Source: a virus
Virus record (IMG/VR): IMGVR_UViG_3300032282_002092
Coordinates: 1-64,000 of that record
Strand: one strand, 5' to 3'
DNA: 64,000 bases
Part shown: piece after piece, positions 16,627 through 55,038 of the stretch
How the letters are laid out: every line of letters begins with the position of its first letter
Numbering within the stretch: position 1 is the first letter of the stretch
Translations under genes and position numbers: made by a program
Notes under the pieces: generated by a model
What the model saw: only the letters and a program-made list of their open reading frames with translations
Database searches by the model: none
Told to the model about the DNA's origin: nothing

Positions 16627-16962
16627 TTACACCGGAATCTTTATAACCGTTCCCGGCTCTAGATCAAGTGGATACCAAATGTGTGGATTAAAATCAGCAA
16701 TAGTCCACCACAAGTTGTGGTTCTGAAGAAACGTGTATGCCAGAAGTTGAAGACTGTCGCCCTCTTTTGCAATGTACTCCAAGTAGTTCTGAGAGGTTGA
16801 CGGTGAGTCCGGTAACCGGTACAGGATCGTGTTGTTCTGGAGCATCGGCTCGGTTGAACTTGGGTCATCACCATCAATCAGTACACGCCGGTACTTGTCA
16901 TACGAGTGACCGGTCGCATACATCTTGGAAGAATCGGCATATCGGGAGTTACCGGTAATCAT
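16627..16962 (-). CDS. LysM-domain baseplate protein
   Basis: 111 residues. The C-terminal half is a LysM-type module: YIAKEGDSLQLLAYTFLQNHNLWWTIADFN...DLEPGTVIKIPV. In contractile phages such short LysM proteins sit between tube-initiator and hub genes. The start overlaps the upstream stop (TGATG). Confidence 0.78.
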   Translation of the reverse strand: MITGNSRYADSSKMYATGHSYDKYRRVLIDGDDPSSTEPMLQNNTILYRLPDSPSTSQNYLEYIAKEGDSLQLLAYTFLQNHNLWWTIADFNPHIWYPLDLEPGTVIKIPV

Positions 16963-18683
16963 CAGACGTAGTTCCTACCAGTCGTCTCAAAGTTGTTGGT
17001 AGTGCCGACATTAGCGGTGATGACATCGTTGCCCAGAGGATTGGGGCGAACGATCATATGGAATAAGTCCATGAAGTGGGAGATCGTCATTACCTGCTCC
17101 AGTACACCCGCCTGCCCACCAGCGGCATGCAGTACTGTGATGTACTTATCATCAACCCTAGTGATAATTCCTACGTGACCTGTTGGGCGACCCGGTTGCC
17201 ACGCTTTGTAAGCAAAGGCCAGATCCCCCGGCATGATTGATTTACGGTTCGTGGCTGACGAGAACCACTTCTTTGCTTGGTCGTAAGTTGCGGCACCAGC
17301 ACTCTGTGCGATGGATATACCGATAGCAGCGTCAGCAGACGCATGATCGTTGTGTGACCATGCGTAGATCAGTTCCCCATTGTGACCCTTTTTGCCTGCC
17401 GTAAATTTGCCGAAGTTAAAGCCGTTGATCATGGAGGTGGAGTTGCCAGAGCCATAACCCCAACCACGGAGATTGCGTGTACCACAGGTCTTTGTGTAGC
17501 CGGTAATTACGAACGGGCTGCATGCGGTGTAGTGCAGATATCCAGTAGAGTCCACCCCTTGCCAGATTTTTGACCAGTCAGATGAGTACTGGGTGTATCC
17601 ATTCCGCATGTGGGCACGGAGCCAGTTGATCACTGCCACACGGGCAGTGGCGTTGTTGTTTGCAACCCTAGTGGTTGTATCGACATATGTATTAACCACC
17701 GGACTGGCAGACTTTACGGTGATCTCTACAGTGCTGGGGAGTGCTGCGTCACCTTCAGGGGTTGCGGGGGTGGTGACTACCGATTCTGAGATGCGGTTAA
17801 ACCCATAGAGATCAGCAACGGTCCTCGGAGAAACATCACTATCTGTAGGAAGGGTGGTCGCCGTTGTGGAGTCCTGAATACCAATGCTGTTGCCAAAATC
17901 ACCGCCAGCACCGCTGAGTGGTCCGATGTATGTAACACGCATCTCCAGAGCGATGCGCATACGTGTCGGGATCATCCGGTGGCTGAACTTCTCAAATGTG
18001 ACCTGAGCGTTGATCGGACGGCCGGTTACCGTAATGTAATCGCTGAAGATAACTGTGATGTCCCGTGGGTTGACCATCATCACGCCGTTATCGGGAACTG
18101 AGTTATTGGTGGCACCAGAAGTGTTTGGTACCACATTTCGTACCACTAGATCGAAATATTCGTAGTCAACGAGTACCCCACGATGGTTGGGGGTTGCTGC
18201 GACCTCATCACCACGGTCGAACAGAAGTTCAAAGTTGAAGTTCATAAAACTTGGCGGGGCTACCAAGTTATTGGAGTTGTACACCGTATTGAACGGGTCA
18301 ATTGTTGCTTGATCCAGATACGACACGTAGTCACGAACGATCTGCTCAGGGTTGTACATGAAGTTGAACTTGGCTGACGATGATGCGTCACCAATCTCCG
18401 TATTGGCACGACGGATATATCCGCGCTTGATCGGCTCCTGCTCTACCGCTGGATGCATCCGACCCAACGTACCGGGGGAGAATGGGGGGTTGGATGACAC
18501 GCCAGAGGAAGTCTTGTTGACGGCCAGCCAATCCTTGATCAAGCGCTGCCGTAACTGCTCACGAGCATAATTAGAATTACCCTGTGACGTGTCAAGGGCG
18601 CTTACATTAGTCCCGTTAACATTGTATGCAGGACTACTCTTCTGACCATTTACGTTTGTATTTACAGGTGAATAACTTCTCAT
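16962..18683 (-). CDS. tube-initiator/CIS tube-like protein fused to an NlpC/P60-like hydrolase
   Basis: 573 residues. The N-terminal part (FNFMYNPEQIVRDYVSYLDQ...FNFELLFDRG...RPINAQVTFEKFSHRMIPTRMRIALEMRVTYIG) matches the contractile-injection tube-protein pattern. The C-terminal 200 residues look like a Cys/His peptidase: YTACSPFVITGY near residue 387 gives the nucleophile and GRPTGHVGIITRV near 500 the histidine. It would cut host peptidoglycan during entry. The peptidase subtype (NlpC/P60 or CHAP) is uncertain. It overlaps the tape measure gene by 4 nt. Confidence 0.75.
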   Translation of the reverse strand: MRSYSPVNTNVNGQKSSPAYNVNGTNVSALDTSQGNSNYAREQLRQRLIKDWLAVNKTSSGVSSNPPFSPGTLGRMHPAVEQEPIKRGYIRRANTEIGDASSSAKFNFMYNPEQIVRDYVSYLDQATIDPFNTVYNSNNLVAPPSFMNFNFELLFDRGDEVAATPNHRGVLVDYEYFDLVVRNVVPNTSGATNNSVPDNGVMMVNPRDITVIFSDYITVTGRPINAQVTFEKFSHRMIPTRMRIALEMRVTYIGPLSGAGGDFGNSIGIQDSTTATTLPTDSDVSPRTVADLYGFNRISESVVTTPATPEGDAALPSTVEITVKSASPVVNTYVDTTTRVANNNATARVAVINWLRAHMRNGYTQYSSDWSKIWQGVDSTGYLHYTACSPFVITGYTKTCGTRNLRGWGYGSGNSTSMINGFNFGKFTAGKKGHNGELIYAWSHNDHASADAAIGISIAQSAGAATYDQAKKWFSSATNRKSIMPGDLAFAYKAWQPGRPTGHVGIITRVDDKYITVLHAAGGQAGVLEQVMTISHFMDLFHMIVRPNPLGNDVITANVGTTNNFETTGRNYV

Positions 18684-21202
18684 CTAGACCTCGCCAACCG
18701 CTTCTTCATCTCAGATTCTAGTTGGTCAGCAAGTTGTGAGGTCACACGCTTCAGGTCGATAGTCGAAGTCGGCCCAACAGAAGAAACTGGGATTGTGATG
18801 TTGTTGTGGAAGTGAACTGTCGTATCGCCATACCGGGAAGACGACTGGGCATATCCGTAATCACCAATATCACCAGTGGGTCCCTGAATGCCGGGGCTGG
18901 TGGCAGCAGTGCTATCCATAGCACTGCTGATGTCAATCGATTGATCACTGCGACCCTCACCACCGAGCGGTCCAAGGGTGGCTCCGAGGAAGGCTGGGAT
19001 GATCTTGTCGAACTTGCTCTGGACATCCCCACCACCACTGAGCAGTGACGTGAATGCAGAAAACGCATCGCCAACTGTTGAGAACATCTTAAAAATGCCC
19101 ATGAACAATTTAGCCATCATCTTCAAGTCCTTGATAATGCTGCCGACACCGGGAAGTCCGAGGAAGCCCACATCACCGTGGCTTGAATCTCCACCCATAT
19201 CACCGATATCGCCTGCGCTATATCCCGGTAAGCGGCTGGGGGACATGGTTCCTGCGACCTGTACGTGCCAAGGTTCCCCGTACTTTGAGCCGTGATCAAG
19301 ACCGAACTTTCTGGCGTTCGCCTGAATCCACTTGTACTGCGAACGTGGACCAATGTCAGCAGCCCAACCGCCGACATGCTGTGACGTGCCCTGAGCATTG
19401 AAGTGCCCTATCCCCTTACCCTTAAGTTTTGACTGAGTAAAGGAATCACGCAATCCGCTGGTGACGCGCAGTTTGGGGTTGGCTTTGAGCATTGCATCGA
19501 CCTTGGGCCGAAGATCGGGAGCAAGCCCAGCAGTGCTCTGAGCACCGTATGCCCCATAACCGGGATCACCAATGTCGCCAGCAGCAACACCACCGTCACG
19601 ACCAGCATTTCCACCGAGGCTGGTTGCTGTGCCAAGCCAACCAGCCGCATCGAACCCAAGGCCACCAAGGATCTGTCCAACAGGACCGGATTGTTGAATA
19701 AGACTGTATAAGAAGTTTGCAATAGGATCTGGAAGGTAAGAAAGTGCCCCTAATGGAGTACGTGGCCCAGCGATGGCTGGCAGCACGTTATTGGTGATCG
19801 TATTCATAAGGCTGTTGAAGCCTTGATTGGCCTTTTCCCTCGTGTTGTACACGGGAGACATCTTTGAGCCAAGCGTCAACTGTCCAGCCGAAGCCAGTGA
19901 ATCGGCCTTGGCCTTGTTATACGCCAAGTTGTTCTTCATATTTCCGAACAGTTCAGTGCCAGACTCTGTCGCACTTACCTTGGCTAGAGCGTATGTCCAG
20001 AAGTAGTTCTTCATCTCTGGGGTTACACCCATAGAGTCAAACCACGCATTGAAGTTTGAGCCGGGGAAGTTCTGGGACAGCAGTTCTCCATGCGTAAACG
20101 CTTTACCGCGCTTGTCACCGGGACGCTGTGTCTCCATCCACTTGAGGATGGACGCTGCCCACTCCTCAACTGACTTCATACCGCCGCCCTGTTTCACCAT
20201 TGAAAATGCGCCGCTGGTATAGAAGGCACCACGCTGTGTACTGCTCGTATTGGTGTATTGACCCGTGAGCATTCCACCAACAGCACCAGCACCGAGGCCG
20301 GGGGTCATCTTCTGAAGAAGGCCAATATTCTTGAAGTAGTTCTCTGAAGAGTTGGCACCGGTACCGTTGTTGTACATACCGGCAACACCGCCCTGAGACA
20401 TGGCAGTGAGATAGTCACCAATATTGCCCATCATGCCACCGGGTCGCGTCCCGAGATACTTCATCAGCCTCTGGTTTGACTGCCCTGTAGCAAACGCATA
20501 TGGTGTTAATTCTTGTGACGCACCGATTGTGTTAGCACGATTAGTCTCCATCGTGGTCCGCACAAAATTCATCGGCATCACTGCCAAGTTGCCTGCTAGC
20601 GTCAGCAGGCCACTGAGTGTTCCCGAAGGATCATAGGCATTTGCTGCCCCATAAGTAGCACCGCTGATTGCACCACCGATAGCACCGCTAATTGATGATG
20701 AGCCTTCAGCAGCGCCAGTGATAGCACCCCCGAGTGCCGCCTGCCTCAGGCCAGATTTAGAGATAGCAGCCTTACCACCGTCACTGTTACCGTTGCCAGT
20801 TTCAATTGGGGCGATGTCTTTAGAGCCACCGCCGCCGCCTTTGCCAGCCTTGCCCTTGCCGCCAGAAACGCCGTTCATGGCGTCGCTCATGTCGGTAATG
20901 GCAGCGGTCGTCTTCTTTGCTTGGTTCTGGAGGCTCGTCATCACGGTGGCAATGTTGTTGCCAAGAATTGACTGTGAGGATGCGAGGCTGTTCAGGGCCG
21001 CTTTGAAGTCATTGAGAGCGCCAGTAACAGTCTGGAATTCCTTAGCCAAGTTCGTGAGGCCGGGAATTTCCATACTGAAATTCATATTTATCTTGGACTC
21101 TTTCTGCTTATTGAAAAGGTTGCCCTTCCCACCGGAGGAGATGGTGCCTGAAGCACTTCCAAAGGCCATTGAAGATCCAGATGCGTCGGGTTCCTTAGCC
21201 AA
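18680..21202 (-). CDS. tape measure protein with embedded M15-type peptidase
   Basis: 840 residues, the largest tail-morphogenesis gene here after the lectin protein. A helical N terminus (LTNLAKEFQTVTGALNDFKAAL) leads into Gly/Ala-rich hydrophobic stretches typical of tape measures. Around residues 575-650 there is a D-Ala-D-Ala peptidase-like domain: VTSGLRD, SQHVGGWAADIG and EPWHVQ give the zinc ligands and catalytic acid of M15/VanY. The TTG start has AGGAG upstream and overlaps the frameshift product's stop. It sets tail length and probably trims peptidoglycan on ejection. Confidence 0.85.
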   Translation of the reverse strand: MAKEPDASGSSMAFGSASGTISSGGKGNLFNKQKESKINMNFSMEIPGLTNLAKEFQTVTGALNDFKAALNSLASSQSILGNNIATVMTSLQNQAKKTTAAITDMSDAMNGVSGGKGKAGKGGGGGSKDIAPIETGNGNSDGGKAAISKSGLRQAALGGAITGAAEGSSSISGAIGGAISGATYGAANAYDPSGTLSGLLTLAGNLAVMPMNFVRTTMETNRANTIGASQELTPYAFATGQSNQRLMKYLGTRPGGMMGNIGDYLTAMSQGGVAGMYNNGTGANSSENYFKNIGLLQKMTPGLGAGAVGGMLTGQYTNTSSTQRGAFYTSGAFSMVKQGGGMKSVEEWAASILKWMETQRPGDKRGKAFTHGELLSQNFPGSNFNAWFDSMGVTPEMKNYFWTYALAKVSATESGTELFGNMKNNLAYNKAKADSLASAGQLTLGSKMSPVYNTREKANQGFNSLMNTITNNVLPAIAGPRTPLGALSYLPDPIANFLYSLIQQSGPVGQILGGLGFDAAGWLGTATSLGGNAGRDGGVAAGDIGDPGYGAYGAQSTAGLAPDLRPKVDAMLKANPKLRVTSGLRDSFTQSKLKGKGIGHFNAQGTSQHVGGWAADIGPRSQYKWIQANARKFGLDHGSKYGEPWHVQVAGTMSPSRLPGYSAGDIGDMGGDSSHGDVGFLGLPGVGSIIKDLKMMAKLFMGIFKMFSTVGDAFSAFTSLLSGGGDVQSKFDKIIPAFLGATLGPLGGEGRSDQSIDISSAMDSTAATSPGIQGPTGDIGDYGYAQSSSRYGDTTVHFHNNITIPVSSVGPTSTIDLKRVTSQLADQLESEMKKRLARSR

Positions 21203-21395
21203 GGTTGCTCTTCTCCTTTCTCCAGCGTTGCAGATTCAAGAAATAATTACGCTCACGATTCGTCAGACTTCTTAGATCGGTTAGTGTCCATCCTGTATAC
21301 ATCGATGCCAAAGCATCGTACATTAGATACAGAGTTTGTATATCAAGGTTGAAACAAATCCATCCAACCAAGGGCCAGATGTTGTTCACCCCCAC
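21195..21395 (-). CDS. frameshift extension of the tail assembly chaperone
   Basis: This open frame overlaps the end of the 21343-22173 gene in the +1 frame and encodes 49 residues beyond that stop (DIQTLYLMYDALASMY...LTNRERNYFLNLQRW). No Shine-Dalgarno precedes its GTG or ATG codons, so it is best read as the product of +1 frameshifting at CCT TGA (21348-21343), giving a 325-residue fusion. The helical LTNRERNYFL segment resembles C-terminal parts of tail assembly chaperones. Independent expression cannot be excluded. Confidence 0.6.
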   Translation of the reverse strand: MGVNNIWPLVGWICFNLDIQTLYLMYDALASMYTGWTLTDLRSLTNRERNYFLNLQRWRKEKSNLG

Positions 21396-22173
21396 AGCCC
21401 AAACACACGGTATCCAGCGTCAGATCAACATTCGGCTGGTTGTCTACGAGGGCGTTCAGGATGATTGAACGGTCCTTCATCGACAGGCTGCGTGCGTAAC
21501 GGAGTGGATCGACAACCAGTCCACCGTTAAACGATGTGATGCAACGTGACAGAATGATCGTGTTCTGCTCAGGGACCGTGATCCCCTTCTTGCGCACGGC
21601 TTCAGTCTGATCATTTCCTGTAGCAAGGCGGTACTCAATGGTGTCACCCTTGGACGTAACGTGGCTATACGTCAACTGATAAGGGTTATCCATCGGCTTT
21701 GCCTTGAAATCCTCGGACAGGATCAAGTCAATCTCCTGCTCGTGTGCGCAGGTGTCGCAAGTCGTCTTGATTGTCTTGTTATCCCCATATGTCTGCTGGA
21801 CAATCGCCAGCAGGATCTGGGTCCGCTCTCCCAGCAGGAGTTCACCAAGGATTCCCTGCCGTTCGGAAAGTGGCTTACCGGTTAGGTCAACCTCACCAAC
21901 TCGCGAGGTACCTGAGGCCAGAATGGCATCAAGCAACTCCAACCCATCCTTTACACGGGCCAGTGCTTCCTCGTCTGCTCCCGTAAGTTCCTTGACATGA
22001 ACTGTCGTGTACCACTCACCGTTCCGATACAGACCACGGGAAACCGTGATCTGATCGGAAATCGGTGTAGAGATAAGAGGGACAGACCCAGCAATTACAG
22101 CCTTTGCTCGCTCTAACTGCTGTACCTTTGACTCTTCAAGTGCGTCGTTCTGTTCTACGTTATTGGACACCAA
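21343..22173 (-). CDS. tail assembly chaperone / gp26-like tail protein
   Basis: 276 residues. A zinc-ribbon-like pair is present: TTCDTCAHEQ near residue 140 and VCLGCGGEQ near the C terminus. Position between tube and tape measure genes fits a tail assembly chaperone; the paired CxxC also recalls T4 gp26-like base-plate proteins. TTG start with AGGAG 7 nt upstream. The stop is in a CCT TGA context and an overlapping +1 frame continues, the usual chaperone arrangement. Confidence 0.65.
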   Translation of the reverse strand: MVSNNVEQNDALEESKVQQLERAKAVIAGSVPLISTPISDQITVSRGLYRNGEWYTTVHVKELTGADEEALARVKDGLELLDAILASGTSRVGEVDLTGKPLSERQGILGELLLGERTQILLAIVQQTYGDNKTIKTTCDTCAHEQEIDLILSEDFKAKPMDNPYQLTYSHVTSKGDTIEYRLATGNDQTEAVRKKGITVPEQNTIILSRCITSFNGGLVVDPLRYARSLSMKDRSIILNALVDNQPNVDLTLDTVCLGCGGEQHLALGWMDLFQP

Positions 22174-22208: not shown

Positions 22209-22814
22209 TCAGAGGGTACCGGGAAGTACGTTCTCTCCGCTATGCGTGAGGTTAACAGAATCCACGTTACCAAAGAAGACATCAAAGCCTTCGTGGTGTA
22301 CCTGCATCTGGTGAATGAAGATGTCGTTGGACATTGAGTTCAGGCCACCGAAACCGATAGCGGCGGTCCAGCAGTTGTAGAACCAGAACGCCATAACTGC
22401 GCCCTGAATACCACCTGCAACACCGGATGCGGGACCCTGCGTAACAGGGTGATCAAGGATACGGATGACCATGTCATAGCGGAATTCCGCACCAGTGCCG
22501 AGCGTTCCCGCACCCCACTGGGTAGAGAACATCTGCTTTGCCAGATCCCACATACCGGGCTTCGTATAGAAGACACCAGCATTGAGCGAGAGCGGTGCAA
22601 AGTCCGACTGTCCCGGCAACTTGTGGGGATTGGTGTTCCAGCCGCCCTCACGATACGGAACCATGTCAGTGGTCATGCTCAGACCCTCAACGGTCTGGAA
22701 GCCAATCGTGGCAAACGAATCATGCAGCGTTGGGTGCAACAGTTCCACTTGGAACTTAAAGTTACGCACCGGATCGGACTGTGACCGAGTGCGCTCATAC
22801 AGGGTGGGCGGCAT
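22209..22814 (-). CDS. tail tube protein (T4 gp19-like)
   Basis: 201 residues. It begins DPVRNFKFQVEL and has IGFQTVEGLSMTTDMVPYRE followed by HKLPGQSDFAPLSLNAGV, the pattern of the gp19 tube family of contractile tails. AAGGAG precedes the ATG. It stacks as hexameric rings inside the sheath encoded next to it. Confidence 0.92.
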   Translation of the reverse strand: MPPTLYERTRSQSDPVRNFKFQVELLHPTLHDSFATIGFQTVEGLSMTTDMVPYREGGWNTNPHKLPGQSDFAPLSLNAGVFYTKPGMWDLAKQMFSTQWGAGTLGTGAEFRYDMVIRILDHPVTQGPASGVAGGIQGAVMAFWFYNCWTAAIGFGGLNSMSNDIFIHQMQVHHEGFDVFFGNVDSVNLTHSGENVLPGTL

Positions 22815-22826
22815 TATATCTCCTTA

Positions 22827-24476
22827 TTAGATGCTGGTAGAGGTAGTGATTTCACGGGTGGACGTTGTCTGATCGAACTGGGTCAGACGAATGACAATGA
22901 ATTCTGCCGGGTACTCAAGAGCAACGCCGATTTCCACACGAGCCTCGCCCGTGGAGATAACAGCGGGGCTGTTGATGGCAGCATCGCAGTTGATGTAATA
23001 CGCTTGGTTGGCGCTGTTACCGCTCAGACCACCAGCGAGCCACACGTTCCGCAGCACACGGTCGGCCGTAATCCGCATTGCGGACCACAGACGCTCGTCA
23101 TTGTTCTGGAACACTGCGAACTGCATCGACCGACGGAGCGATTCCCGCAGGTAGATCAGCGTGCGTCGTGCGGAGACGTAACGGTCAACACCGTACTTCT
23201 TCTTCGTACGGGCACCCATGATTGCGATACCGGAACCGGTGACGCTGCGGATGACGTTGATGTTCTGATCAGAGTTCAGTGTTCCGAGGACGGCCTCGCT
23301 GAACTTTGCCTGCACACCAACGGCGTTCGTGATGCCTGCGATAGCACCAGCCGGTGCCCTGAACGGGCTGACCGTTGCATCGGTGCGTGCGTACACGCCG
23401 ACGACTGCGCCACCCGGCGGGACTGCCTTGACCTGACCAACCTTCTGGGGATCTGAAATGAGAATCCAAGGACCGTACGCAGCGACGTAAGAGTCACCGG
23501 AGTTGGCGTTCAGGCTTGTGCCACTCGTCATCGTCGTTACATACGACGAAACACTCTGGCTGGGTTCACGAGGAGGACAGTTGTCGTTGACAATAAAAAT
23601 GTCATTGCGATCCGAAAAGTCAGCAGCGGACACCGTCGCTCCAACCCAACCGTTAGCCCAGTTATCAGTGTTCTCCTTGGTGTAGTCATCGATATAACCA
23701 GCGATGTTCAACACAATCGGACCATCGATCTTCGATAACGGGCTATCGTCACCGTCAGGGATAACAGCCTCCTTCAGAGCAAGCGCAGTGGGAAGACTGG
23801 GAGTGGTTCCCCCAGTGAGTGACCCGCTGCTATCTAAAGAAAACACAAGGGTATGGTCAGTCGCTACGGACACATACTGCGAACCGGAAACAGCATCGTT
23901 GATGCGTGCCTCAACCTGAAAGGTTCCAGCAATCGTTCCCCAAAGGGACAGATTGCTGAAGGTTTCCACAATTTCTCCCTTGTACAGGATCTGAAGCGTA
24001 AAAATCTGCTCCGTAACACCAGAGCCGAGCGTGCCCTTAGTCTCCTGAATGATGAGAGAGTAAGACAGGTCGTTGCCCCACTTACCGGGTGACTTAGCGG
24101 TAATGGTCATAACCGTGCCGGTAGTAGCACCGTTCTTGAACTGTCCGGTAATCCCCTTGGATGCCGCCGAACCGTCGTCATCTCCGACCGCACGGACGAT
24201 GTACGCCACACGGCCACCGTTCTGGAAGTACGAGTACACAGAATAGGGCAGGTACGAAAGAGCGGAAACATTAGCATTAGCAGTAGGAACATAGTTGAAA
24301 CCACCAAAGATGGTGACGTACTGGCTCCATGACTGGATGAGGACGGGGTCGCCAACGGGACCACTGGGTGCTGCTCCAACAAAGCATGCAACGGAAGTGG
24401 CGTTAGCAATCTGGCCCGAGTTTACGAGAAGACTCTCTTCAAGATAAACACCGGGACTACGGTATGAGAGGGGCAT
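22827..24476 (-). CDS. tail sheath protein
   Basis: 549 residues. N-terminal SYRSPGVYLEESLL, the domain with VACFVGAAPSGPVGDPVLI and SYFQNGGRVAYIVRAVG, and C-terminal KYGVDRYVSARRTLIYLRESLRRSMQFAVFQNND...ALEYPAEFIVIRL are the hallmarks of contractile sheath subunits. AAGGAG upstream of the ATG. It surrounds the tube and contracts on infection. Confidence 0.95.
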   Translation of the reverse strand: MPLSYRSPGVYLEESLLVNSGQIANATSVACFVGAAPSGPVGDPVLIQSWSQYVTIFGGFNYVPTANANVSALSYLPYSVYSYFQNGGRVAYIVRAVGDDDGSAASKGITGQFKNGATTGTVMTITAKSPGKWGNDLSYSLIIQETKGTLGSGVTEQIFTLQILYKGEIVETFSNLSLWGTIAGTFQVEARINDAVSGSQYVSVATDHTLVFSLDSSGSLTGGTTPSLPTALALKEAVIPDGDDSPLSKIDGPIVLNIAGYIDDYTKENTDNWANGWVGATVSAADFSDRNDIFIVNDNCPPREPSQSVSSYVTTMTSGTSLNANSGDSYVAAYGPWILISDPQKVGQVKAVPPGGAVVGVYARTDATVSPFRAPAGAIAGITNAVGVQAKFSEAVLGTLNSDQNINVIRSVTGSGIAIMGARTKKKYGVDRYVSARRTLIYLRESLRRSMQFAVFQNNDERLWSAMRITADRVLRNVWLAGGLSGNSANQAYYINCDAAINSPAVISTGEARVEIGVALEYPAEFIVIRLTQFDQTTSTREITTSTSI

Positions 24477-27888: not shown

Positions 27889-28986
27889 CTAGATGAGACT
27901 GATTAGTTCAGGCCACAGTCTTCTCGTAATTATACCAGTCTGCTTTAGTCCGGTGTCAGCCTGTATCTGCTTAACCGCTGCCTTTGTAGCAGCATCGAAT
28001 ATTCCGGTAATAGGTACCGAGTAACCGTTGGCAACTAATTTGGTTTGTGCGTAACTTACCCTATCACTTTGCATACCGTATTTAAGAAGTGGGTAAGGAT
28101 TATTATACATTGACGGGGGAGGCTGTATCAACGGGGATCCCGCAACCCACGCGTCCAGTACGGACTGCTTAACGAGATTGACATCTAGGTCGTAGGACTT
28201 AGCGCCGTACTCACGCCCGATTCTTGGGCCGTTAGAGGCGAACTGCCAAGCAGCCCATTTACCGTCATTAGCGGTCCACCCCTTAGGTACGAGTTGGTTA
28301 AGAGTATTATCCCTCTGTTCCGTAACAAGGTTATGCCACGTAGTGGAATCGTGCAGGTTGACAGAACCACCGGGCTTTAGCAGGTAGTCCCAACCCGGTC
28401 CACCGTTATATGGCCCTAAGCACCAGTATGGAATAATGATATCACATCGACCGGGTCCCCTATTCTGGCCCAAGTTCGATCCATCGGCCTTGGCTACAAC
28501 CTTGTGACCATACTTGTCGTCTGGAAGACGGCAGTACTTGTTCCACGCAGCCGTGCTGGTGTAGATGATTGGTGTCCGCTGAAGACCTTCCTCAACGGTG
28601 TTGATGAAATCATCAAACCAGAAGTACATATCCTTACCGTAAAGCGCTGGATATTTTCTGGTGTATTTGTTTGACTTTTCATAGTTCTCAAAGTCAACCA
28701 TTAACGGAAGGTCGCCAAGTCCGAGGTCCTGAGATCGCTTTACGGCGATCTCTCCCTGACGCTTGGCATTACTGTCATCCATAGGATTTATGAACCAATA
28801 ATGGCTGTACTTAATGCCTGCTGCGCGAGCCTTACTACAATATTCAGTAGTAAATGGTAATTTGGTATTATTACCAATACCTATCTCTATGAACATGTAG
28901 TCAATGCCTTTTGACTTCATCTTTTCAAAGTCAACACGGCCTTGCCACTGAGCGATGTCTGCTAGCGGAACATACGTCTCTGTCAC
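27889..28986 (-). CDS. endolysin: GH25 muramidase plus peptidoglycan-binding domain
   Basis: 365 residues. GH25 features: PLADIAQWQGRVDFEKMKSKG, MFIEIGIGNN, KYSHYWFINP and LPLMVDFENYE, which supplies the DxE catalytic pair. The C-terminal 70 residues form a PG_binding_1 module (YPLLKYGMQSDRVSYAQTKL...FDAATKAAVKQIQ). It cleaves the MurNAc-GlcNAc backbone. The GTG at 28986 overlaps the upstream M15 lysin stop (GTGA); an in-frame GTG lies 15 nt earlier. Confidence 0.88.
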   Translation of the reverse strand: MTETYVPLADIAQWQGRVDFEKMKSKGIDYMFIEIGIGNNTKLPFTTEYCSKARAAGIKYSHYWFINPMDDSNAKRQGEIAVKRSQDLGLGDLPLMVDFENYEKSNKYTRKYPALYGKDMYFWFDDFINTVEEGLQRTPIIYTSTAAWNKYCRLPDDKYGHKVVAKADGSNLGQNRGPGRCDIIIPYWCLGPYNGGPGWDYLLKPGGSVNLHDSTTWHNLVTEQRDNTLNQLVPKGWTANDGKWAAWQFASNGPRIGREYGAKSYDLDVNLVKQSVLDAWVAGSPLIQPPPSMYNNPYPLLKYGMQSDRVSYAQTKLVANGYSVPITGIFDAATKAAVKQIQADTGLKQTGIITRRLWPELISLI

Positions 28987-29780
28987 CCAAGCGCCGCCCA
29001 CGTCGCTGCGTCAACGATGCCGGTTTCTGGCAGTGCGCTGTGCAACTGGAACGCCTTGACTGCTGTCTGAGTACGGGGACCAAACTGCCCATCCGCAAGG
29101 AGTGTGTAGCCCTTCTTGGTCAACTTCTCCTGAAGAATCTTTACGTCAGCACCGGAGTCACCAACCTGAAGCACCGGCTGTGTCGGCGGCGCTGCGGGAT
29201 CTGGGTAATGACCTTCCTCTGCAATAACAGCGGGCGGCATAGGCCCATCGCCAAGTACCCAACACCAATGCCAATTCTCGCTTTTTGTAGTATTAAAAAA
29301 GCCAAAATCTGGGGCGTTGTTTGCTAGCCACGCCAACGTACGGTCATCAAGATTGACTGTAATACCAAGTGAGTTCTTGCGCGCCCAGTCAATTGCACAG
29401 CCTTTGCCATGATTAGAAGTGCCCGGTTTCGCTGCTCCAGCAACAGGATTACCGTAGCGATTCTTCTTTAGGTACCACCATGTGCCCTGCCAGAATTCCT
29501 TGCGCCACGGAGCGGGCTTGGGGATCTTGTCATAGCGCTTATTGAATAGTGTGACCTGACCGGCGAAACTACGATATGGACTCCCACTGGTCCACAGTTT
29601 GATGCCGTCCCGCTTGGCACGCTGCATGAGAGCACGGTGTGCTCTAGCCGCCTCACGGACCATGACAAAATTACCAATACCGCACTTCTCCAAGATGCTG
29701 CTTGGCAACTGACCGTTGTCATAGCCCTTGGCGCAAGTGGGGGTAGTTACTGCGGATTCTGGCTTGTAGGGAAGGTCCAT
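28983..29780 (-). CDS. endolysin: M15 (VanY-like) peptidase plus peptidoglycan-binding domain
   Basis: 265 residues. Zinc-peptidase motifs: SGSPYRSFAGQ, TSNHGKGCAIDWA (His and Asp ligands) and ENWHWCW (catalytic Glu and His). A Pro-rich linker leads to a PG_binding_1 domain (LQVGDSGADVKILQEKLTKKG...FGPRTQTAVKAFQ). It cuts peptide stems and complements the muramidase encoded just downstream. The ATG at 29780 follows the glycosyltransferase stop, which overlaps its AGGAG. Confidence 0.88.
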   Translation of the reverse strand: MDLPYKPESAVTTPTCAKGYDNGQLPSSILEKCGIGNFVMVREAARAHRALMQRAKRDGIKLWTSGSPYRSFAGQVTLFNKRYDKIPKPAPWRKEFWQGTWWYLKKNRYGNPVAGAAKPGTSNHGKGCAIDWARKNSLGITVNLDDRTLAWLANNAPDFGFFNTTKSENWHWCWVLGDGPMPPAVIAEEGHYPDPAAPPTQPVLQVGDSGADVKILQEKLTKKGYTLLADGQFGPRTQTAVKAFQLHSALPETGIVDAATWAALG

Positions 29781-29785
29781 GTCTC

Positions 29786-30883
29786 CTACTTTCTGGGGGC
29801 GTACCACCCATTGCTTCCGTCCCTCAGGGACTCAAGACGTGTTAACCAATTATCGTACATATCAGCGCATTTGTCTATGCCACATAAGTTTATGGCCCGG
29901 TTACGCCAATGGTTTCCACGAGTCAACTGGGCTAGTTCTACGGACTCAATGGCCTGCTCCATATTCCGGTACCGGTATGGGGGAGGAAGCGTTTCGGTAA
30001 ACACTCCATAATCGGGAGCGACTACACCGACACCTGACATCATGGCCTCTGCGTGGACACCTTCCCACGGCCCGATATACAAAGTGGGACAAATAAATAC
30101 TTCGGCTTCCGCAAATAACTTCTTGCGTGCCTCACCGGTAACACCGCCAATGTGCTCAATATCCCCAGTAATGACAGTGCCATCGGTAGCCACTACCTTG
30201 CCCGGTTCTTGGTGAGCCACCCCACCACCAGCCATGATCAGTTTCAGTCCCGCTGCATTGGCGATCTGTGCAGCAACATGCGGCCCCTTGCGGTGTATAA
30301 GACGGCCCACAAACAGTGCGTACCCCTGTGACTCTGCCTTGTACCACTCGTTGGGATCAACAGCATTGGGGATCACCACATCGAACGCACGGCCATCACC
30401 GATTCCATATGCCCCATATCGGTTGTGCATCCACGCATATGACTCATAACAGGCAAATGTGTCCTTGGAAATGCCCTCGTAGCCGACCCCCGGTTCGATG
30501 ACCGTGTACTGGTCCTTGTACTTGGCAATCAGTTCGTGGCTGATAGAACCGCCAATAAAGCCGATGATGTCGCCGGGTTTCAGGGCGTTATCCAAGTGAG
30601 TAACAGCACGCTCATGGAACAGTTGCCAGTACGGAAGGCTGGACACCCACTCAATCTTGGGCAGTTCGGAAGGTTCCCAGACCCCGAAAAACTGTTCCTG
30701 TTCATCCCTTGACAGGCAGGAGACATCACCTTTGTCACCGCCCCAATAGACTGTTACGTCCCAGTTCTTAGAGCGCAGCATTCTGGCAAGTCTTACGGCC
30801 TTTGCCGTGAAAGCACAGTATGAGAATTCGTTGTCGTCAAACTGTGTGTGGGGGAGGCCGACTAGGTGAATAGTGGGTCGCAT
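29786..30883 (-). CDS. GT-B glycosyltransferase (GT4-like)
   Basis: 365 residues. The C-terminal Rossmann lobe shows LFVGRLIHRKGPHVAA, LKLIMAGGG and VFICPTLYIGPWEGVHAEAMMSGVGVVAPDYG, the nucleotide-sugar site with the EGxHAEAM acidic motif of GT4-like retaining enzymes. The ATG at 30883 has no Shine-Dalgarno but lies 7 nt after TAAAGT, so it may be leaderless; a 30-codon longer frame is rejected. It lies between the lysins and the collagen-like fibre and diverges from a methyltransferase. Likely target: a virion or cell-surface glycan. Confidence 0.82.
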   Translation of the reverse strand: MRPTIHLVGLPHTQFDDNEFSYCAFTAKAVRLARMLRSKNWDVTVYWGGDKGDVSCLSRDEQEQFFGVWEPSELPKIEWVSSLPYWQLFHERAVTHLDNALKPGDIIGFIGGSISHELIAKYKDQYTVIEPGVGYEGISKDTFACYESYAWMHNRYGAYGIGDGRAFDVVIPNAVDPNEWYKAESQGYALFVGRLIHRKGPHVAAQIANAAGLKLIMAGGGVAHQEPGKVVATDGTVITGDIEHIGGVTGEARKKLFAEAEVFICPTLYIGPWEGVHAEAMMSGVGVVAPDYGVFTETLPPPYRYRNMEQAIESVELAQLTRGNHWRNRAINLCGIDKCADMYDNWLTRLESLRDGSNGWYAPRK

Positions 30884-30890
30884 GTCGCTC

Positions 30891-30905
30891 ACTTTATCGT
30901 ATACT
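30891..30905. promoter_or_regulatory. divergent leaderless promoter pair
   Basis: Only 29 nt separate two divergent start codons. Plus strand: TATACT (30900-30905), 7 nt, ATG. Minus strand: TAAAGT (30896-30891), 7 nt, ATG. Neither gene has a convincing Shine-Dalgarno. -35 elements are weak and would lie inside the opposite gene. Confidence 0.5.
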
Positions 30906-30912
30906 TTCGCAC

Positions 30913-31492
30913 ATGACTTGGAACCAAGAGCAGGAGTGGGAACGTCAGTGGTGGGGAGACTGCACCAACACATTTGCCGAGGAAACCAAGCAGATCACCT
31001 ACGCACACCGCATGGGACTCCAGAACTTGTCAGATGGAGCGCATTGGCCGCTTTACCACCTGAATGGGAAGTCAATACTTGACATTGGAGGTGGCCCGGT
31101 TTCCATGCTCCTCAAGACTGATGGTGGTGGTTACCGCAAGGTGGTTGACCCGTGCCGTTACCCGGCTTGGGTTTACGCACGTTACGAGATTGCTGGCATC
31201 AACTGGGACATCGCACCGGGGGAGAACTTCGACCTGTCACAGACATACGACGAGGTTTGGATATACAACGTCTTGCAGCACACCGATGACCCTGAGGTGA
31301 TCATCGCAAACGCCCGAGAGGTTGCCCATACGATCCGCATCTTTGAGTGGATCGACATCCCGGCACACCCCGGCCATCCGCAGATGTTGACCAAGGTCAA
31401 GTTGGACGAGTGGCTACAGGGTGATGGGACTGTCGAAGACTTCCGTTGGAAACCTGAGAACGGATGCAACCAAGTCGCTTACTACGGTGTAT

Positions 31493-54952: not shown

Positions 54953-55034
54953 GCCCGAATGGCGAAATAGGCAAACGCAGGGGACTTAAAATCCCCCGTC
55001 TAACGACTTGTGGGTTCGATCCCCACTTCGGGCA
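54953..55034 (+). tRNA. tRNA-Leu (anticodon UAA)
   Basis: 82-nt cloverleaf with 7-bp acceptor GCCCGAA/TTCGGGC, anticodon stem GGGGA...TCCCC around CTTAAAA, giving anticodon TAA (reads UUA, Leu), a long variable arm and T-arm GTGGG TTCGATC CCCAC. The discriminator is A and CCA is not encoded. It lies just downstream of a plus-strand gene and may be co-transcribed. Confidence 0.93.
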
Positions 55035-55038
55035 CTGA

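Follow-up and report, generated by a model that had tools for sequence, protein, structure and literature searches.

A gene of the T4 gp26 family, carried by a contractile-tailed phage, very probably specifies two forms of a tail assembly chaperone, the longer of which is predicted to arise by a +1 slip of the ribosome at UUU_C. The gene was found in a stretch of 64,000 nucleotides (the window; positions 1 to 64,000 of the IMG/VR record IMGVR_UViG_3300032282_002092). Most ribosomes would stop at a TGA codon and release a 276-aa short form, and some would skip one base at UUU_C and continue into a 325-aa long form. The gene family, the conserved +1 overlap, the homologous C-terminal tail, the invariant slip quartet and the co-linearity with T4 gp51 were computed directly; the slippage itself, its efficiency and the chaperone function are what we infer. 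A +1 programmed frameshift in a gene of the tail-assembly-chaperone type had been proposed in a preliminary description of this DNA, and the conserved overlap and homologous tail strongly support it.

The open reading frame of 276 codons (22173-21343, minus strand) has a TTG start closely 3' of AGGAG and ends with GAT TTG TTT CAA CCT TGA. Past this TGA the +1 frame stays open for 49 codons, to position 21195, so that both the frame ending in CAA CCT TGA and its 49-residue extension are confirmed as first described. The 276-aa protein matches PF12322 (T4 gp26 family) with 31.6 bits against a cut-off of 24.5, and also PHROG_150. When TTTC is read as one step, translation gives a fusion of 325 aa with the junction WMDLF/NLDIQTLY, and its 51-residue tail carries a conserved motif around GWTLTDLRSLTNRERNYF. 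The gene sits between those of the tail tube and of the presumed tape measure (Table 1), in agreement with the preliminary description, which had placed it just upstream of the latter; the presumed tape measure gave no significant family match with Pfam and PHROG profiles. It is followed by a gene for a 573-aa protein (16962-18683, minus strand) whose CHAP-like segment scores below the Pfam cut-off and which matches CIS tube proteins only weakly. Elsewhere in the window, two adjacent, overlapping endolysin-like genes (27889-29001 and 28983-29807, minus strand), both with C-terminal matches to endolysin families, are adjoined by a gene for a glycosyltransferase of a phage moron family (29786-30973, minus strand), and there is a single tRNA-Leu gene with the anticodon TAA (54953-55035, plus strand).

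Table 1. Features of the frameshift locus and the neighbouring tail genes in the window.
Feature	Positions	Strand	Basis
0-frame product, 276 aa, T4 gp26 family; predicted short form, TAC-N-like	21346..22173	-	PF12322, PHROG_150, AF2 model with pLDDT 94
Putative +1 slip quartet UUU_C; P-site Phe codon (F274) would re-pair with UUC	21351..21354	-	Conserved in relatives
0-frame stop TGA	21343..21345	-	Sequence
+1-frame tail, 51 codons from slip site, NLDIQTLYLMYDALASMYTGWTLTDLRSLTNRERNYFLNLQRWRKEKSNLG	21198..21350	-	Translation with TTTC as one step; homologous tails in 180 relatives
Presumed tape measure protein; TTG start at 21202 overlaps the end of the tail ORF	18680..21202	-	Size and position
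Tail tube protein, T4 gp19 family	22209..22814	-	PF06841, PHROG_4542
Tail sheath protein	22827..24476	-	PHROG_23, PF17482

Relatives of the gene were collected with tblastn, which returned six Streptomyces phage records representing five distinct phages, and by scans of viral contigs, which yielded many further loci; another query brought in Bacillus SP-15, Listeria LIS04, Streptococcus GXN1 and one uncultured jumbo phage. After the removal of duplicates the set comprised 180 loci in 112 clusters at 70% identity, with protein identities down to <30%. Beyond the 0-frame stop, 179 of the 180 distinct relatives keep the +1 frame open for 30 codons or more, as compared with only 9 of the 180 for the -1 frame, and the +1 overlap is therefore far more than expected by chance; in the one remaining relative (L242) the same tail begins and then runs off the end of the locus. 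Among themselves the +1 tails are homologous, with a consensus in the groups nearest the window of approximately LYWEYE-x-IA-x-x-Y-x-GWSLSEIR-x-L-x-x-RER-x-YW. Conservation of the overlap in relatives, named at the outset as a check on the frameshift, is thereby borne out: a conserved out-of-frame C-terminal tail, reachable by recoding, is present in 180 of 180 relatives, one of them cut by the contig end. All 29 fused relatives (29/29) match PF12322, and the alignment of these 29 proteins has only five invariant columns, including the slip Phe (F274) and one Arg in the +1 tail. In L020, an apparent extension of 143 codons was rejected as an artefact of a tblastn match that read through the stop; L134, from the same contig, ends normally. 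The public annotations examined (L002, L003, L004, L005, L105, L108, L267 and L272) either leave out the tail or give a small ORF whose start lies further downstream. Annotated truncations of the tail include BRock gp135, LuckySocke 91, SP15_046 and immuto35A_232, and the annotations of pSt2308 and LIS04 have no tail at all.

At an aligned place 2-9 codons before the stop, 180 of 180 relatives carry a quartet TTT_C, TTT_T or CTT_Y, two of these sites, outside the first pattern, having been assigned by eye. The quartet is TTT_C in 79/79 genes with [LIF]F[RQH], TTT_T in 53/53 genes with FFWP, and CTT_C or CTT_T in 41/41 genes with W..LL. Phe codons elsewhere in the same genes are TTT 508 times and TTC 433 times (about 54% TTT). 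Given each gene's own usage, the probability of TTT at every aligned Phe site is ~10^-48 (139 sites) or 10^-33.6 (90 clusters at 70% identity), and that of CTT at every Leu site ~10^-30 (41 sites) or 10^-17 (22 clusters), figures that are overstated by the treatment of loci or clusters as independent. Each quartet lets the P-site tRNA re-pair one base forward (UUU to UUC or UUU, CUU to UUU or UUC). The window has TTT_C (21354-21351) at this place, three codons ahead of the stop, with CAA as the A-site codon. Since stops close the +1 frame four or five codons upstream in L132, L170 and L059, the shift is confined to a few codons. Four phages that were not used to form the rule, namely Flavobacterium immuto, Microcystis Mel-JY01, Rhodothermus RM378 and Streptomyces Alone3, show the quartet together with a +1 tail that is open; Alone3, being closely related to LuckySocke, does not count as an independent test, and the tail profile failed to recover the tail of RM378. 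The A-site codons (CGN or CAN, TGG, YTA) are conserved together with the slip site and may matter for the shift, yet they are also constrained by +1-frame coding. In bacteria, UUU_Ynn is prone to +1 slippage without a stop codon (PMC5009743), and the influenza PA-X site, likewise +1, is UUU_CGU (PMC5009743).

The preliminary description had placed the shift at the last sense codon before the stop, as a +1 slip on CCU_UGA, with Listeria phage PSA as the parallel; slow termination would drive such a slip. The parallel holds in so far as Listeria phages are known to shift +1 at CCC_UGA, and in structural genes, as here; these are, however, the tail-shaft and capsid genes and not a chaperone gene (PMC5009743), and the Pro codon at the stop that forms the tail-shaft site has no conserved equivalent in the present family. 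CCT or CCC does precede the stop in 14 of the 112 clusters, the window included, but across these clusters 40 different codons occupy that position, many of them, such as GAA and AGT, unable to re-pair in +1. Moreover, TGA, TAA and TAG are all used, the stop comes directly after CTT CTA in L134, L137 and L142, and the invariance of TTT or CTT is left unexplained. Because the last codon is not conserved, we reject a shift at the stop, which is improbable; a slip at UUU three codons before it, rather than at the stop itself, is the most likely reading of these alignments. As the conserved element is [TC]TT[TC] upstream of the stop, the predicted junction becomes DLF/NLDIQT instead of LFQP/DIQT.

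Alternatively, coupled re-initiation, at GTG 21395 for instance, could yield the tail as a small protein of its own and not as part of a fusion, and small ORFs with their own starts are indeed annotated in BRock, LuckySocke, GiJojo and Alone3. These ORFs, however, cut away the conserved beginning of the tail; in 42 of the 112 clusters there is no ATG, GTG or TTG in the +1 frame near the tail, a start accompanied by a Shine-Dalgarno-like motif occurs in only 5/112, and in T4 gp51 the same tail is fused in frame. That the overlapping frame lacks a good start of its own, as had been observed earlier, holds for the window, where GTG 21395 is the only start codon and has no upstream Shine-Dalgarno sequence. 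Re-initiation is thus a very improbable source of the tail. A -2 frameshift has been reported for the tail chaperone gene of phage Mu and would reach the same frame as +1, but it is scarcely credible here, -2 re-pairing being poor at UUG UUU C and CUU YUA and +1 re-pairing being perfect (UUU to UUC or UUU) or RF2-like (CUU to UUY).

Two candidate stimulators of the shift were rejected: no Shine-Dalgarno sequence was detected on average upstream of the shift codon (score 3.18 versus 3.08 in controls), and downstream RNA structure gave no consistent signal (mean z +0.35); upstream structure showed a mild tendency (mean z -0.99). As a single sequence, the window alone folds a downstream hairpin of -14.5 kcal/mol. 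A Trp four codons upstream of UUU has been reported for ICE fseA (PMC5009743). The window has one at the same distance (GWMDLF), and as a general rule it was rejected because the BRock group is without it.

Two phages, the uncultured LR756511 (L269) and Xanthomonas XacN1 (L271), depart from the rule in having the out-of-frame tail in the -1 frame. The tail profile picked up the tail of LR756511 (E 1.5e-6 for a set of 1000) but not that of XacN1; XacN1 had no relatives among the viral contigs. Three more relatives of LR756511 (L273-L275, two of them identical at this place) agree, with the -1 tail and U_UUU_UUC at the Phe-Phe site. Over all these -1 loci (L269, L273-L275 and L271) the Phe-Phe site reads TTT TTC TTC, that is U_UUU_UUC, or TTT TTT ATT. 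U_UUU_UUC is a -1 heptamer of the classical kind. In the jumbo-phage branch, then, the shift appears to have switched direction without moving from its place. A -1 shift on X_XXY_YYZ is not the case in the window, where the tail is in +1; only the jumbo-phage branch has it in -1.

T4 gp26 and gp51 both belong to PF12322 and PHROG_150, the same protein family as the gene described here. Against a profile built from the fused proteins, gp51 aligns all the way to its C-terminus, tail included, and gp26 as far as the slip residue, although both scores are low (15.9 and 9.4 bits). T4 gene 26 ends with TTC TTT GAG TTA CTA TAA and has UUU_G in place of the quartet. By these alignments gp26 resembles the short form and gp51 the long form with its tail. 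Since gp26 comes to an end at the slip residue and gp51 looks like the fusion, T4 uses two separate genes for the two forms, in contrast to the single gene with a conserved +1 overlap found here. The 73-kb record, possibly a fragment, holds one gp26-family copy, and a long form is obtained only by joining the +1 frame. According to the PRFect paper (PMC10885494), which cites Vladimirov et al. 2022, some T4-like phages have a short and a long copy in place of a frameshift, and the family studied here supplies the frameshifting counterpart of that two-gene arrangement. A literature search, mostly of open-access papers, found no published description of frameshifting in this family. A possible history, which we rate somewhat short of probable, is that the gp26 family was ancestrally +1 at UUU_Y or CUU_Y, flipped to -1 in the jumbo branch with the Phe-Phe position unchanged and, in T4, had its frameshift replaced by a later duplication into genes 26 and 51.

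The AF2 model of the short form has a pLDDT of 94.4. It gave no PDB match at E 0.001 or better, and its best structural alignments were with YqbN (3klu, Z 7.4) and the HK97 tail assembly chaperone gp13 (2ob9, Z 6.7), both under the safe level of 8; in a comparison with predicted viral structures, the model matched T4-like baseplate hub assembly proteins. No PDB chain matched the fused sequence. Given these structural matches and the position of the gene, a tail assembly chaperone with predicted short and long forms is the best reading. If lambda gpG/gpGT is taken as the model, coating of the tape measure would fall to the short form and recruitment of the tube subunit to the long form.

The lambda pair likewise lies between the tail tube and tape measure genes and consists of a short form and a frameshifted long form, but it uses a -1 shift on a tandem slippery heptamer instead of +1 on a single P-site quartet, and no sequence similarity to the present gene is shown. 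In PA-X (UCC_UUU_CGU), the +1 slip is that of tRNA-Phe, and UUU_CGN is the quartet plus A-site codon in most of one group here; that gene and its host are unrelated, however, and the window itself has UUU_CAA. The release factor 2 gene prfB shifts on CUU_U, comparable with the W..LL group, which has invariant CUU_U or CUU_C; it differs in that the present sites have neither a stop in the A site nor a Shine-Dalgarno sequence at the RF2 spacing.

The tail chaperones of T4-like phages have until now been cited as an exception that does without frameshifting. The conserved +1 overlap and quartet are present in the same family in phages of Streptomyces, Bacillus, Listeria, Streptococcus, Flavobacterium, Microcystis and Rhodothermus. 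This gives a large natural collection of +1 sites in which no stop codon occupies the A site; many genome annotations would be corrected, and the origin of T4 gp26 and gp51 becomes testable.
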